Shown here: positions 37,279 to 53,446 of the stretch, one piece after another | Layout of the letters: each line of letters starts with the position of its first letter | Position numbering within the stretch: the first letter of the stretch is position 1 | From: Spirochaetes bacterium ADurb.BinA120 | Lineage (GTDB): Bacteria > Spirochaetota > UBA4802 > UBA5368 | Length of the DNA: 54,775 nucleotides | Assembly (NCBI GenBank): GCA_002069125.1 | Contig: MVZN01000015.1 | Coordinates: forward strand, 1-54,775 | Direction of reading: 5' to 3' | The notes under the pieces: model-generated | Database searches by the model: none | The model's input: only the letters and a program-made list of their open reading frames with translations | What the model was told of the DNA's origin: nothing | Made by a program: the position numbers and the translations under genes

Positions 37279-40200
37279 TTAGGCCATGCCGGCCCGTTCG
37301 CCGTCAATCCTCTTTCGCGCCGGGCCTTCCGCTTCGGCAGCGGCTGCCACGAGTGAAGAGGCCCCGGCCTCTCCGCCCTCGGCGGCGTTTCGAAGATACA
37401 CACCCACCAGCCGATTGACGTCGCTCTCGCCGTCGTAAAAGAGGGATACGGTCCGAAGCGGCAACCCCTCGGATTCCGGCAGGTTTTCTACGGGCGCATC
37501 CTCAACTCCTCGCACGGCCGGACCGCTCCTGAAAAGCGCGCCTGTGATGTTTCCCGGCATGCAGCCAAAGGGCGCGCAGTTAACCACCAGGGCGGCCCCG
37601 GCCTCGGCGAAGGCTTCGGCCCGCCCCAGCGTCAGAATGGCCTCGCCCTCGAAATCGAGCGGCAGGTGGCGCTTTCCGTATTCGAGCACCATCTCCATGG
37701 CCGGTTCGCGGCGATGGGCGAGATAGGTATCCATGGCTGCCTCGAATTTATTATAGCGATGAAAGATGTAGGCCGTCCTAAGCCCCACCAGAGTCCTGTT
37801 CCAAAACCCGGTGCGGTGCAACTTCGCGAAATAGCGCTCCATCCACGAGGTGTACAAAATCCATTCCGAGATGGGCGCAAGCCACGCCTCTCCGCCGAAG
37901 CCCTCGATCGCCTCCACCAGCCGGTTGTTACAGTAGGGGTTGCAGCGCACGTAGATCTCTCCCACTATGCCGACCAGAGGCTTCTTCCCGGCGTAAACCG
38001 GAACGCGCGCGATCAACTCGAGCGCCCTTCCCGTTGCCGCAATCAGGTCGCCTTTTCGTTCCGCGGTCTCTTCCACCTGTCTTATCGCCTCGTCGGCCGC
38101 CCTGTCGACGGAGCCCGGCTCCACCTCATAGGGCCTGCGTGAGCAGATCTGCTTGTAGAGCATATCTCCGGAGATGAGGATGTCCCAGAGATACATACGA
38201 AGGCTCTCGGGCATGCCCATATATGAATTGACTGACGATGGGGAGAATATCTCGGCACCTTCGAAACCATTCTCCGCCATTATCTTTCTGTGCAGAAGGG
38301 TGTACTGGCCGAAGCGGCAGGGCCCCTCGGCCGTCGGCATGAAGAGAGCGTGTTCGTTGGGGTCGGCATCGATCTCGCGCAGGGTGCGCAAAAATACGCC
38401 TATGGTGGTGCTGGCCGGCAGGCACTCGCTTCCGCGCACTCCGCGCCTGCCGATCTCGTGAGCCAGGCCCTCCTCCATGGGAAGGGCCTCCGCGTCGAAG
38501 CCCCATGCCCGGAAACCAGCCGCCGTTATGCGAGGCGAGACCTCGTGCATGGGAGGAATCCAGAGCTTTCGGCCCTTTTGCTTCCAGGTGGAATGGAATT
38601 GCGCTCGAGAAGCGGCCGGTTTTTCGGTCTCCCCTGTGTGTCCGCGGAGGACGTCCATAAAGGCCTCGATTCGGGTGAGATAGCCGGTATCGGAACCGTG
38701 CTCATCGAGCTCGATTATAAGGTACGGCCGGCCCTTCATGATCTCCTCGAAGCGGGTGAGCACGAAGGAATCGGGGCCGCATCCAAAGTTCGTAAGATAT
38801 ACGGGATACAGGTCTTTCATCCGGCGTATTCTTCCGGCAAGGGTGAGAATGCGCTCGCCGTAGTACCAGTACATGTGGTAGACATCCGTGCTCCAGTCGG
38901 AGGGATCGATAAGGCATTCGTATGGAAAGATCTCAAAGCCCTTTCCGGCAAAGCGCTCCGGGAGGGACATGTTGACCACGGAATCATACAGATTATAGGG
39001 CCTCCCTATGAAGACTATTCCCTTCTTGCCCTCATCCTTTATTTTCTTCATCAGGGTGCGGCCGTATTCCCATCGCCGGTTCAAAAATTTCTGCTGAGCC
39101 TCGAGGCCCGCCTTATAGGCCGCCCGAACCTCCTTTTCGGAAGGCCCGTATGCGGCAAGCGCGCGTCCCAGCGATTCCACGATGAGCCTCTCGTCAAGAC
39201 GGAAATCCACAACCGGCGCGATCACCGGCAAGGGAAGCTCGAGCGTACCCGATGTGAGGGAGGGAAAGGACATAACATAGGGGCAGGAGATGCGAGGCAG
39301 CCCGCCCTCCTGCTTCTTCTCGCTAATTACGGTCGGATAGAAGAGCGCGTCCACATCATCTCGGTGGGAAAGCTCATGCGCGTGGGCAAGCGCCATCTTC
39401 ACCGGAAAGCAGAAGTCCGATCTGGCTATACGGATTCCTGTCTCCTTGTGGGCGGCCTTCGATGCTCCTGAGGGCGCCGCCTCGAAGCCTAAGCGCTCGA
39501 GGAAGGTTTTCCACAGCGGCATATAGCCGTGCATGGAGAGGGCCTGCGGGATGCCGATTCGAGGGCGCGGATTCGCGTTATGAAGGCGCGGATTCGAATC
39601 CGCGCCTTCATAACGCGAATCCGCGCTTTCATGAAACGCCATCGCGCGTACGCGGGAGAGATGGTTCACCGCGCGGCGCGGGCGCGAATCTTCGCCCTCC
39701 TCGCGCCCGCACATGTGGCCCCACGATTCCACGGCCCCGCCCTCGAGGCGCGCCACGGTGATGGTGCAGCGGTTGGAGCAGTCGGCGCATTCGCGGTAGG
39801 ATATATCTATCTCGCGCTCGAAAACATTTAGGCCTCTAAATACTCCCGCCTTTTCCTCAGACCGTTCGAGCGCGATTACGGCCGCCCCGAACGCGCCCAT
39901 CACATGACAGTGCGGCGAGACCACCATCTCCCTGCCCGTAATGAGCTCGAAAGCGGCCACGAGCCCCGCGTTTCGTGCCGTCGCGCCCTGGAAAAATATC
40001 CTGTTTCCGGTAACGGGCCGGGTGCCCACCACCCTGTACAGGTAGTTTCGCGCGATGGAATACATCACCCCCGCAAGGACCTCCTCGCGCGAGCGGCCCT
40101 CGCGCAGCAGCCGCTGGATATCCTGCTCCATGAAAACCGTACAGCGGTCGGAGGTGTGCGGAATCTCTCGCCCAAGCGCGAGCTCACCGATCTCTCGCAC

Positions 40201-41781
40201 GTCGTAACCCAGGCGGCCGGCCTGCTCCTCTATGAACGAACCAGTCCCCGCGGCGCAGACAAAATTCATGGCGCAGTCCATTACCGCGCCGCCCGCGCCC
40301 CGTATGTACTTGGCGTCCTGCCCGCCTATTTCAAAGACCGTTTCAATGGAAGGGTCGTGGTGCGTAGCTCCGCGGAAATGGGCCGTTATCTCGTTCACTA
40401 TGACCGAGGCGCCCATCAGGCGGCCTATCAGTCTGCGTCCGGAGCCGGTCGTCGCGGCTCGTTCGATGCGGGCCTCTTTGCCGATCGCCTCGCCGAGGGC
40501 CTTAAAAAGGGCACGCGTCGCTCCGATAGGGTCGCCCCCCGTTTTTCGGTAGATGTCGCAGACCACCTCGCGGCTTTCGGCGTCGATTACGACGCATTTG
40601 GTGCTGGTCGAGCCTATGTCCACTCCGAGCGCGAGAGGCCTGTCGCCCGGGGCCTCATTATGCAGGCGCACCTCATTTCCATCGGCCAGATATTCCCGAA
40701 CCGGCCCTGCCGCGATATGGGAGGAACGGCGAAGCTCGAGGATTCTCGGCCGGCCTTCCTCTTCCGGGCCTGTTCTTTTCGTCTCGTTAGACGAAGCTTC
40801 AAAAGCGGGGCACACGAGTTCGCCCTCTTCGCTCTCCATCGCGACTTCGGTGGCATAGGGTTTCGAGGCGCCAGGCCTCGCTGTGCCGGAAAGGCCGCCC
40901 TCTCCCGCCAAAAGGGCCGCGCCGATGGAGGCGAGAAAATGGCCTTTTTCGTGAAACAAAGGCCGGGGCACCGAGCGAGATACCCACTCGCGCGCCTGGG
41001 GATTGAGGAAGAGCCCTCCGCAAAAGAGTATCGGGTATTCCGGGACATCGCCCCTGAACACAGTGGCGAGCATTGTGGTCACCACCCCCCGGCAGAGCCC
41101 GGACCACAGCTCTTCGCGCGTATAGCCCTCCTGCTGGCGATGGATGAGATCGGACTTGGCGAAGACGGCGCAGCGCGTGGCTATGGATGGCGGATCGTTC
41201 AGGATTCCAAGCTGCCCAAGGTCCTCGTAGTTAAAGCCCATGCGTCGCATCTGCTCATCCAAAAAGGAGCCGGTGCCTGCGGCGCAGAGACTGTTCTCGC
41301 GATATCCCCTGAAGCGCATCTTCCCATCGAGCTCGATGCAGCGGATCGACCCTGCCCCGACGTTCACTATATGACCGCACTCCATCCCCTCGCGGCGCAC
41401 CGCCATGATGGTGGCGGCTATCTCGTCCACACTTCCCAGAAAGTGCGGATCCAAATCCGCACGCCCCAGAAAGCGCGGGTGGGAATTCGCGCCCGCGCCC
41501 CTCAGAAAGCGCGGATCCAAATCCGCGCCAGCGCCCCCATCCGAATCCGCGCCCCGACACCCATCCGCGCCCCCATCCAGATGACCGGCAAATGGACCGG
41601 TAGCGACGATCCAGGCGGGCCGACCGCCGTTTTCGGCGCCGTTCATCTCGGCGAGTGCCGCCTTGAGAGCAAGGCTCGGCTTGCCGAGGTGTTCGACAAA
41701 GCGCATGGCGTCGTCGTGTTGAATTTCATTGTATCTCACAATCTTCAAAAATTTGCTTCCCGCGTCGACGCCGAAAATCAT
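37279..41781 (-). CDS. Giant 2-hydroxyacyl-CoA dehydratase activase (duplicated BcrAD/BadFG, DUF2229-like) with repeat insertions
   Basis: This 1500-residue cytoplasmic protein belongs to the ATP-driven activases that supply low-potential electrons to 2-hydroxyacyl-CoA or benzoyl-CoA-type dehydratases and reductases. It has two BcrAD/BadFG ATPase domains; CAAGTGSFLDEQ near residue 166 and CAAGTGSFIEEQ near 510 mark each. A Cys pair in ADCSNRCTI lies near residue 680. A DUF2229-like region starts at GIPQALSMHGYMPLWKTF near residue 742, and a HgdB-like C-terminal region ends the protein. The ATG at 41781 has GAGG at 6 bases; M1 at 41817 would add 12 residues. Two in-frame insertions, residues about 85-115 and 719-739, consist of palindromic repeat DNA and lie in a loop of the first domain and in the linker before DUF2229. 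The protein would be active in anaerobes. Confidence 0.93.
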   Translation of the reverse strand: MIFGVDAGSKFLKIVRYNEIQHDDAMRFVEHLGKPSLALKAALAEMNGAENGGRPAWIVATGPFAGHLDGGADGCRGADSDGGAGADLDPRFLRGAGANSHPRFLGRADLDPHFLGSVDEIAATIMAVRREGMECGHIVNVGAGSIRCIELDGKMRFRGYRENSLCAAGTGSFLDEQMRRMGFNYEDLGQLGILNDPPSIATRCAVFAKSDLIHRQQEGYTREELWSGLCRGVVTTMLATVFRGDVPEYPILFCGGLFLNPQAREWVSRSVPRPLFHEKGHFLASIGAALLAGEGGLSGTARPGASKPYATEVAMESEEGELVCPAFEASSNETKRTGPEEEGRPRILELRRSSHIAAGPVREYLADGNEVRLHNEAPGDRPLALGVDIGSTSTKCVVIDAESREVVCDIYRKTGGDPIGATRALFKALGEAIGKEARIERAATTGSGRRLIGRLMGASVIVNEITAHFRGATHHDPSIETVFEIGGQDAKYIRGAGGAVMDCAMNFVCAAGTGSFIEEQAGRLGYDVREIGELALGREIPHTSDRCTVFMEQDIQRLLREGRSREEVLAGVMYSIARNYLYRVVGTRPVTGNRIFFQGATARNAGLVAAFELITGREMVVSPHCHVMGAFGAAVIALERSEEKAGVFRGLNVFEREIDISYRECADCSNRCTITVARLEGGAVESWGHMCGREEGEDSRPRRAVNHLSRVRAMAFHESADSRYEGADSNPRLHNANPRPRIGIPQALSMHGYMPLWKTFLERLGFEAAPSGASKAAHKETGIRIARSDFCFPVKMALAHAHELSHRDDVDALFYPTVISEKKQEGGLPRISCPYVMSFPSLTSGTLELPLPVIAPVVDFRLDERLIVESLGRALAAYGPSEKEVRAAYKAGLEAQQKFLNRRWEYGRTLMKKIKDEGKKGIVFIGRPYNLYDSVVNMSLPERFAGKGFEIFPYECLIDPSDWSTDVYHMYWYYGERILTLAGRIRRMKDLYPVYLTNFGCGPDSFVLTRFEEIMKGRPYLIIELDEHGSDTGYLTRIEAFMDVLRGHTGETEKPAASRAQFHSTWKQKGRKLWIPPMHEVSPRITAAGFRAWGFDAEALPMEEGLAHEIGRRGVRGSECLPASTTIGVFLRTLREIDADPNEHALFMPTAEGPCRFGQYTLLHRKIMAENGFEGAEIFSPSSVNSYMGMPESLRMYLWDILISGDMLYKQICSRRPYEVEPGSVDRAADEAIRQVEETAERKGDLIAATGRALELIARVPVYAGKKPLVGIVGEIYVRCNPYCNNRLVEAIEGFGGEAWLAPISEWILYTSWMERYFAKLHRTGFWNRTLVGLRTAYIFHRYNKFEAAMDTYLAHRREPAMEMVLEYGKRHLPLDFEGEAILTLGRAEAFAEAGAALVVNCAPFGCMPGNITGALFRSGPAVRGVEDAPVENLPESEGLPLRTVSLFYDGESDVNRLVGVYLRNAAEGGEAGASSLVAAAAEAEGPARKRIDGERAGMA
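39565..39626 (-). repeat. Perfect 62-bp palindrome inside the activase gene
   Basis: Two 31-base arms are exact reverse complements with no loop, centred between 39595 and 39596. The core 20 bases are GCGCGGATTCGAATCCGCGC; it is flanked by TTATGAAG and CTTCATAA, then again by GCGCGGATTCGCG and its complement. Read with the gene it encodes ADSRYEGADSNPRLHNANPR, in the linker just before the DUF2229-like domain. The same core occurs in the array at 41437-41528. Confidence 0.9.
41437..41528 (-). repeat. Tandem array of three hairpin repeats inside the activase gene
   Basis: Three units start (plus strand) with CAGAAAG at 41437, 41467 and 41503, with spacings of 30 and 36 bases, both multiples of 3. 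The outer units fold into 8-bp stems around CCAA: GTGCGGAT pairs with ATCCGCAC in the first, and GCGCGGAT with ATCCGCGC in the third. The paired base change keeps the stem. The middle unit has a 7-bp stem (GCGCGGG with CCCGCGC). The units encode ADLDPRFL, ANSHPRFL and ADLDPHFL. More degenerate copies of the core follow to about 41570. Confidence 0.85.
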
Positions 41782-41959
41782 CATAATCCTCACTTTAAAA
41801 ATGTTTTTTCCGGGCACTCATAGGAGTTAGGTATTCCAGTCCATCTTCGGCAAGCGGGGATACCTGGTTTTTGTAACTACCGCTGATATTTAGAGGCCCC
41901 ACCTGAGCTTTTACGATCACCCTTAAGTTGTAGGGAGGACCATTCATACATAAAACGTA

Positions 41960-43088: not shown

Positions 43089-43127
43089 TTGGTTACTTTC
43101 TTTCGCCCCACGAAAGAAAGTAACCAA
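43089..43127. repeat. 17-bp inverted repeat with 5-base loop
   Basis: The arms (43089-43105 and 43111-43127) begin TTGGTTACTTTC and end with the complement, around CCCCA. The stem is perfect and AT-rich enough to be a cruciform or a weak terminator. It stands about 55 bases after the M23 gene stop in its transcription direction. Confidence 0.7.
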
Positions 43128-50556: not shown

Positions 50557-50578
50557 CTCCCAAGCGGCATGCTATGAT
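50550..50578 (+). promoter_or_regulatory. Strong sigma-70 promoter for the riboswitch and btuB
   Basis: TTGACA (50550-50555) and TATGAT (50573-50578) are separated by 17 bases; the -35 is perfect and the -10 matches five of six. Transcription should start near 50585, at the beginning of the riboswitch. The -35 box overlaps the first codons of the phosphopantetheinyl transferase gene. Confidence 0.75.
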
Positions 50579-50579
50579 A

Positions 50580-50715
50580 GATGTGCCGGTGGAAAATCCC
50601 GGCAGGAGGAAGCGGGTGAAAATCCCGCGCTGTCCCGCAACTGTAATTCCGCGCCCGCGCGGATGAGCCAGGAACTCCTTTTACTGGATATCCTCGAGGA
50701 ACGGGAACCGGTGAG
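50580..50715 (+). ncRNA. Cobalamin (B12) riboswitch
   Basis: The conserved aptamer parts are visible in order: GGTGGAAAATCCC near 50587, GGGTGAAAATCCCGCGCTG near 50613-50632 followed by TCCCGCAACTGTAA (the B12 box), and GATGAGCCAGGAACTCC near 50662-50678. Binding of adenosylcobalamin or methylcobalamin changes the folding of the downstream leader. It precedes a terminator at 50755 and btuB at 50953, so transcription of the uptake receptor is expected to be cut off when B12 is abundant. Confidence 0.93.
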
Positions 50716-52920: not shown

Positions 52921-52974
52921 GCTCTCCGAACTCATCCCCCCGGCCCCCTTCTCTTCGGGCAAGAGAAGGGGGAG
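52921..52974 (+). repeat. 54-bp hairpin repeat, copy 1
   Basis: The 54 bases are identical to 53255-53308. They start GCTCTCCGAACTCATC and contain an 11-bp perfect stem (CCCCCTTCTCT at 52944-52954 with AGAGAAGGGGG at 52962-52972) around TCGGGCA. The first copy begins 24 bases after the btuB stop and could act as a 3' end structure. Confidence 0.95.
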
Positions 52975-53254: not shown

Positions 53255-53308
53255 GCTCTCCGAACTCATCCCCCCGGCCCCCTTCTCTTCGGGCAAGAGA
53301 AGGGGGAG
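53255..53308 (+). repeat. 54-bp hairpin repeat, copy 2
   Basis: Identical to 52921-52974, same orientation, start-to-start distance 334 bases. Confidence 0.95.
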
Positions 53309-53417: not shown

Positions 53418-53446
53418 CCCCCTCTCTTTCGTTCAAAGAGAGGGGG
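53418..53446 (+). repeat. CCCCCTCTC-type hairpin with 12-bp stem
   Basis: CCCCCTCTCTTT (53418-53429) and AAAGAGAGGGGG (53435-53446) pair perfectly around CGTTC. It follows an 8-bp inverted repeat at 53402-53418. Confidence 0.8.

Follow-up and report, generated by a model that had tools for sequence, protein, structure and literature searches.

How do palindromic repeats come to lie within protein-coding genes, and how is their symmetry kept up? Intragenic palindromic repeats have been described in Rickettsia and in a few other genomes. Among the closest described systems are the REPs, whose GTAG- and CGTC-tagged groups are short dispersed palindromes located mostly downstream of genes and sometimes clustered; in the sections of the published account drawn on here, GTAG REPs have a stem of 5–13 bp, CGTC REPs have a stem of 8–9 bp and a loop of 4–5 bases, and REPs sometimes lie within genes and are translated, with 20–82 amino acids reported (PMC3733652). 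The Rickettsia palindromic elements (RPEs; Ogata 2000, 2002) are about 150 bp long, and nearly half of the 44 copies in R. conorii are located within genes according to the cited excerpts (PMC10969869, PMC2996958). With respect to mechanism, quasipalindrome template switching has been established in E. coli (PMC7202029), and the arms of inverted repeats are homogenised in yeast coding DNA (PMC8604942). Because intragenic REPs and RPEs are described in the portions of these sources used here (PMC3733652, PMC10969869, PMC2996958), a palindromic repeat inside a gene is of a kind already known. We analysed a 54,775-nucleotide stretch of the genome of Spirochaetes bacterium ADurb.BinA120 (hereafter, the window), in which one gene carries such repeats at two places.

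Palindromic inserts in an activase gene

The host gene (37279–41817, minus strand) encodes a fused acyl-CoA dehydratase-type activase of 1512 amino acids with BcrAD_BadFG-type ATPase and DUF2229 domains, and its reading frame of 1512 codons is intact. With dN/dS over the aligned codons at 0.16–0.22 against two congeners (genomes G003 and G004), the gene is under purifying selection.

The first insert, site a (41425–41578, minus strand; protein GADSDGGAGADLDPRFLRGAGANSHPRFLGRADLDPHFLG), is an in-frame array of palindromic units and half-sites. A preliminary description of this DNA had reported three units that start with CAGAAAG at spacings of 30 and 36 bases, and these starts are found exactly at 41437, 41467 and 41503. 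On the plus strand, the motif is followed in unit 1 (41437–41466) by the stem GTGCGGAT/ATCCGCAC (41443–41450/41455–41462), in the degenerate unit 2 (41467–41502) by GCGCGGGTGGGAATTCGCGC (41473–41492), which has 2 mismatches to the family core, and in unit 3 (41503–41528) by the stem GCGCGGAT/ATCCGCGC (41509–41516/41521–41528). The outer units had been said to keep an 8-bp stem through a paired change, and indeed both stems are perfect, with 4-base loops. The peptides read from the three units on the minus strand are ADLDPRFL, ANSHPRFL and ADLDPHFL, all inside the intact frame, in agreement with the in-frame ADLDPRFL-like peptides described earlier. The stretch folds better than 200 of 200 shuffled sequences (z = −4.2 as DNA and −4.6 as RNA).

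Three features had been overlooked in that first reading. First, additional half-sites, ATCCGAATCCGCGC and CATCCGCGC (41539–41570, plus strand), extend the array to approximately 41578. Second, the array is peculiar to the species of the window, and its congeners have one copy at the same place. Third, the same gene contains a second insert, site b (39565–39626), a perfect 62-bp palindrome with 31-base arms and no unpaired centre, which forms part of the insert ESADSRYEGADSNPRLHNANPRPR. Site b belongs to the same palindrome family as site a and contains the family core GAAGGCGCGGATTCGAATCCGCGCCTTC (39582–39609); AAGGCGCGGATnnnnATCCGCGCCTT at this site is the sole copy in this genome at ≤2 mismatches.

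In an alignment with eleven orthologues, insert a corresponds to approximately residues 84–127 and insert b to approximately residues 745–775. The preliminary description had predicted, in advance of any such alignment, that the roughly 30 residues of site a would be absent elsewhere. This holds for other genera and families, in whose orthologues neither insert has a counterpart, but not for the congeners G003 and G004, which carry both inserts as single short units (GADSNPR and variants; GGC GCG GAT TCG AAT CCG CGC), the unit at site a being GADSNPR or GADSNPH. A third variable place, directly before insert b, has similar peptides in the congeners only. In this genus, copies of the palindrome therefore occupy two places in the activase that are common to three species, and their translation apparently adds loop-like segments to an enzyme that is otherwise constrained and presumably tolerates them. 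Because solved relatives align only downstream of insert a, the term 'surface loop' is used here on the strength of length variation among orthologues; a predicted structure of the first activase domain, made from a two-sequence alignment, had a mean pLDDT of 34.6 and was left unused. Since the congeners hold a single copy at the same place, the array at 41437–41528 is probably a later local in-frame expansion, and the site-a insertion would be older than the three species, with amplification of the array afterwards.

A dispersed family in one order of Spirochaetota

The palindromes of the activase gene are members of a REP-like dispersed family in one order of uncultured Spirochaetota, with a core of about 28 bp, GAAGGCGCGGAT-nnnn-ATCCGCGCCTTC. 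Copies were counted by pattern searches of genomes, all of which are draft or metagenome assemblies. At ≤1 mismatch, the core GCGCGGAT-nnnn-ATCCGCGC is present in 19 of 59 relatives: this genome has 16 copies, two congeners have 14 and 9, G005 and another genome of a sister genus have 38 and 14, and G023 has 44; a reversed control pattern gave 0–1 matches per genome across the 59 relatives and 0 in this genome. The further copies that the preliminary description had anticipated are thus present here and, in many cases, in relatives. A survey of 149 sampled genomes from the phylum gave 10 with the extended core, and every one of them belongs to the order of the window. Exact core matches in GTDB r220 comprised 27 records, of which 17 (several from one assembly) are titled uncultured Spirochaetes and 10 are scattered single matches in other phyla; no Rickettsia record was among them. 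A literature search for the core sequence found no match, and in Rfam the palindromes of the window had none.

In this genome, the copies are clustered at about six loci. The activase gene holds two of these; others are arrays on contigs 46 and 129, which begin where a gene appears to have its TGA stop, and isolated sites, for example on contig 22. From this dispersal, the family would appear to be mobile. The earlier proposal that a mobile or amplifying palindromic element had been accepted as protein sequence is upheld in part, as far as the family and its local in-frame amplification are concerned, with the qualification that most copies are extragenic and that mobility is deduced from dispersal. 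Two candidates were set aside. L198, a two-mismatch match, is ordinary coding sequence with no insertion, and therefore the two-mismatch lists include some chance matches. A role as a DNA uptake sequence was rejected, the half-site GCGCGGATTCG occurring 15 times in 3.5 Mb as against the hundreds to thousands of single copies of such sequences.

Because most copies are extragenic and near gene ends, the family behaves mainly like a REP. As in the REPs of the cited sections of PMC3733652, it has an 8-bp stem, a 4-base loop, a dispersed distribution and a position mostly downstream of genes; REP ends can supply a stop codon, and the TGAA of this family apparently does so at C46, C129 and L193 (PMC3733652). 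It differs from GTAG and CGTC REPs, as characterised there, in that the tag is absent and the flanks are GAAG/GAAA and CTTC/TTTC (GAAR/CTTC) or locus-specific. Those sections of PMC3733652 make no mention of arms that are locus-specific and perfectly complementary, or of a centre that is self-complementary. The PARCEL palindromic coding repeats share tandem in-frame units and dyad symmetry with site a; they are, however, longer protein-repeat domains of exogenous genes, whereas the activase carries short inserts in an enzyme gene (PMC2996958).

Other repeats and signals were observed in the window and in these genomes. The only Rfam match of the window is a cobalamin riboswitch (50565–50695, plus strand; RF00174, 49.2 bits). 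A second hairpin repeat has two identical CCCCCTTCTCTTCGGGCAAGAGAAGGGGG copies and one related copy (52944–52972, 53278–53306 and 53418–53446), and two congeners carry a GCGCGGAT-family copy in this stretch. At 43089–43127, a terminator-like 17-bp hairpin, TTGGTTACTTTCTTTCG, is followed by a T-run. In G003, a tandem GTGAAGGCGCG tract (L188, 1370–1540) lies beside a palindrome behind a stop codon. A separate repeat of about 45 bases adjoins the element L166 in G005 and occurs at about 40 places in G007. Finally, L224 and L225 on contigs C46 and C74 of G008, a genome of another family, are 88–92% identical to contig 129 of this genome, reflecting either assembly contamination or recent transfer.

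Paired change in arms and centres

The preliminary description had also suggested comparing copies for compensatory changes, and such changes are paired. At site b, 22 base pairs were compared outward from the middle of the palindrome: 8 differ between the window and G003 (8 paired, 0 one-sided), 9 between G004 and G003 (9 paired, 0 one-sided), and 1 between the window and G004 (1 paired, 0 one-sided). The phylum survey listed 43 two-mismatch copies; in 35 of them the two mismatches lie opposite each other and are complementary, where chance would give 1.6%.

The same symmetry extends to sequence that the copies do not share. In the 31 copies of G005, the common sequence ends about four bases outside the 20-mer. 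Outside the 20-mer, pairing between the two arms of a locus is 0.73 at positions 5–8 and 0.61 at positions 9–12, as against 0.28 and 0.26 for arms drawn from separate loci; because pairing is high within a locus and low between loci, the arms are locus-specific yet symmetric. Full palindromes span 46–62 bp. At a site between convergent genes, L211, the arms are symmetric but different in four species. The palindromes change in pairs between species, and the arms outside the core are locus-specific and perfectly complementary. Correction of the arms is incomplete, since several armed copies in G003 (L195, L196 and L197) carry single unpaired changes, and the paired symmetry is far clearer at other copies than inside the site-a array. 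Locus-specific perfect arms around a common core, with paired replacement inside coding sequence, are a combination that we have not seen described in the parts of the literature cited here.

Chance would make the four bases of the centre self-complementary in 1 of 16 copies; they are so in 65 of 92, in six different forms, although TCGA makes up 47 of the 65 and these copies may share descent. An RNA hairpin cannot pair its four central bases and so has no need for a self-complementary centre. The apex also varies at a single locus: L294 in G007 has another apex, GAAGGCGCGAAAGCGCTTTCGCGCCTTC, than L155 at the same locus in the sister species G005.

Where do the arms come from? Comparison of occupied and empty sites offers some indications, although the host-flank evidence amounts to only 4–7 bases per locus and the empty sites of G005 and G007 are mostly too diverged for reading. 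The left arm of L196 starts with AGTAGC, which contains the conserved stop codon of the upstream gene, and AGTAGC is found in three congeners without the element. At L321/L194, the left flank GCGTCAG is present in both species, and its inverted right copy in G002 only. Two cases are weaker. A 48-bp palindrome lies at the 3′ end of the activase gene in G003, and the last bases of its right arm, TGCGCG, occur in G004 without the palindrome; at L220/L284, one clear pair of occupied and empty sites examined for target site duplication, CCGG stands on both sides and is itself a palindrome. Not every arm is visibly derived from the host, because the arms at L195/L305 are absent from the empty site of G002. 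These short matches are directionally consistent with copying of the host flank.

Origin of the symmetry and its implications

We consider it probable, with some reserve, that the family is a REP-like repeat whose symmetry is renewed at the DNA level, most likely by template switching, and that the site-a copy was locally amplified. During replication, the template would be switched at the hairpin, and the polymerase would use either one arm or adjacent host DNA as its template for the opposite side; the palindrome would thereby grow, regain perfect symmetry and now and then be replaced as a whole. Site a of the window would afterwards have been expanded locally in multiples of three bases, as the single copies in congeners suggest. 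The spread of the core could have relied on hairpin-dependent copying or, equally by assumption, on transposition in trans. The family shows paired changes of several bases by which symmetry is increased or maintained, as in quasipalindrome correction by template switching; that process likewise perfects imperfect inverted repeats by copying arm to arm and leaves clustered paired changes, in coding DNA too (PMC7202029, PMC8604942). It is known at single sites; in this family, it would operate repeatedly on dispersed copies and extend the arms into host flank. Because the symmetry covers the centre and the locus-specific arms, copying of DNA is favoured over a kept RNA hairpin. In this respect, the earlier suggestion that the element is kept as a hairpin is half sustained: symmetry is retained by paired change, but the centre and arms point to copying at the DNA level.

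It is possible, although we do not favour it, that the family is a conventional REP-like element, spread by an unlinked transposase (RAYT-type or other), with its hairpin kept as a two-way terminator or stabiliser of mRNA ends through ordinary compensatory substitutions. The setting of the copies fits this reading. According to a rough gene caller, the genes neighbouring 43 scored copies are convergent in 17 cases, in the same direction in 13 and divergent in 3 (8 copies fall within a frame by this scoring, several of these calls being doubtful, and 2 are without one neighbour), and the distance to the gene end is mostly 10–40 bp. T-rich tails resembling intrinsic terminators follow 10 of the 31 copies in G005, so that about a third of the copies in one genome have what appear to be the T-runs of a two-way intrinsic terminator, and the A- and T-runs at L211 are retained in several species; a terminator role for such copies is likely. 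Where the palindrome is itself the terminator, as at L211, ordinary hairpin selection explains the paired changes. Such selection leaves the symmetric centre and the coding site unexplained. It is within coding sequence, in which a terminator would do harm, that paired turnover is strongest, and at sites a and b no terminator is predicted and T-rich tails are absent. As for the transposase, Y1 genes are present in most of these genomes, but they are equally common in genomes without the element. GTAG REPs are associated with RAYT genes in the cited account, whereas the GCGCGGAT core flanks 0 of the 18 Y1/RAYT loci examined, and linkage to RAYT was rejected. The one exception involves a variant palindrome, GAAAGCGCGCAAGCGCTTGCGCGCTTTC, which lies within a RAYT-type transposase frame of G010 (L280, 1100–1744), where an outer inverted repeat of 21 bases encloses it; another variant palindrome lies just outside this gene.

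A more active role for the core is likewise possible, although we do not favour it. The family would then be a foldback system in which the conserved palindromic core, at insertion or replication, takes the host DNA next to it and writes it in inverted form on the opposite flank; the copies, including those inside genes, would in this way be perfect palindromes made partly of host DNA.

It is unlikely that the family is of the RPE kind proper, that is, a selfish element that lives chiefly in protein-coding genes, even though the activase inserts are in-frame, stop-free and palindromic, with several inserts in one gene and none outside the genus. The likeness to the Rickettsia elements drawn in the preliminary description is real to the extent that both are palindromic DNA placed in frame at loop-like places, apparently kept as protein in the RPEs of the cited excerpts and here, and repeated in several copies per genome. 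Membership of that family is unsupported by length, typical location or sequence relation. The cores are 28 bp and the palindromes up to 62 bp, as against about 150 bp (PMC10969869), and the other copies examined are mostly extragenic. No sequence relation was found by the exact core matches in GTDB r220, a comparison that did not include the RPE sequences themselves. Nor is there a large share of copies in unrelated coding genes: stop-to-stop frames were searched over 20 elements, and in the three with Pfam domains the element always lies outside the domain, probably before the start, so no further convincing intragenic copy is known beyond the activase and the variant palindrome in the G010 RAYT gene.

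A GC-rich minisatellite of the gene or chance, unrelated to any dispersed element, is very improbable, as the period-like 30- and 36-base spacing and the tandem tracts of the same motif in some relatives are outweighed by an identical core at dozens of unrelated loci, control matches of about zero and single copies at the same sites in congeners. Long perfect palindromes are a known class of assembly artefact, and every genome examined is a draft or metagenome assembly, but foldback or chimeric reads can hardly be responsible, since the palindromes stop after 46–62 bp, their flanks go on without inversion, and separately assembled species are occupied at the same sites with different but symmetric arms.

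At one coding site in three species, symmetry survives the replacement of about a third of the base pairs, always in pairs, and this case makes it possible to test selection on the hairpin against direct copying from arm to arm. The family offers a natural set of perfect palindromes of 46–62 bp that are inherited between species. If the arms are copied, the process would mislead any test in which compensatory changes are taken to prove that an RNA structure is conserved. If the foldback reading were true, host codons would have been copied in mirror image into new protein sequence. Copying between arms, if it is the cause of the symmetry, would let a functional enzyme acquire changes in several adjacent codons in a single step.
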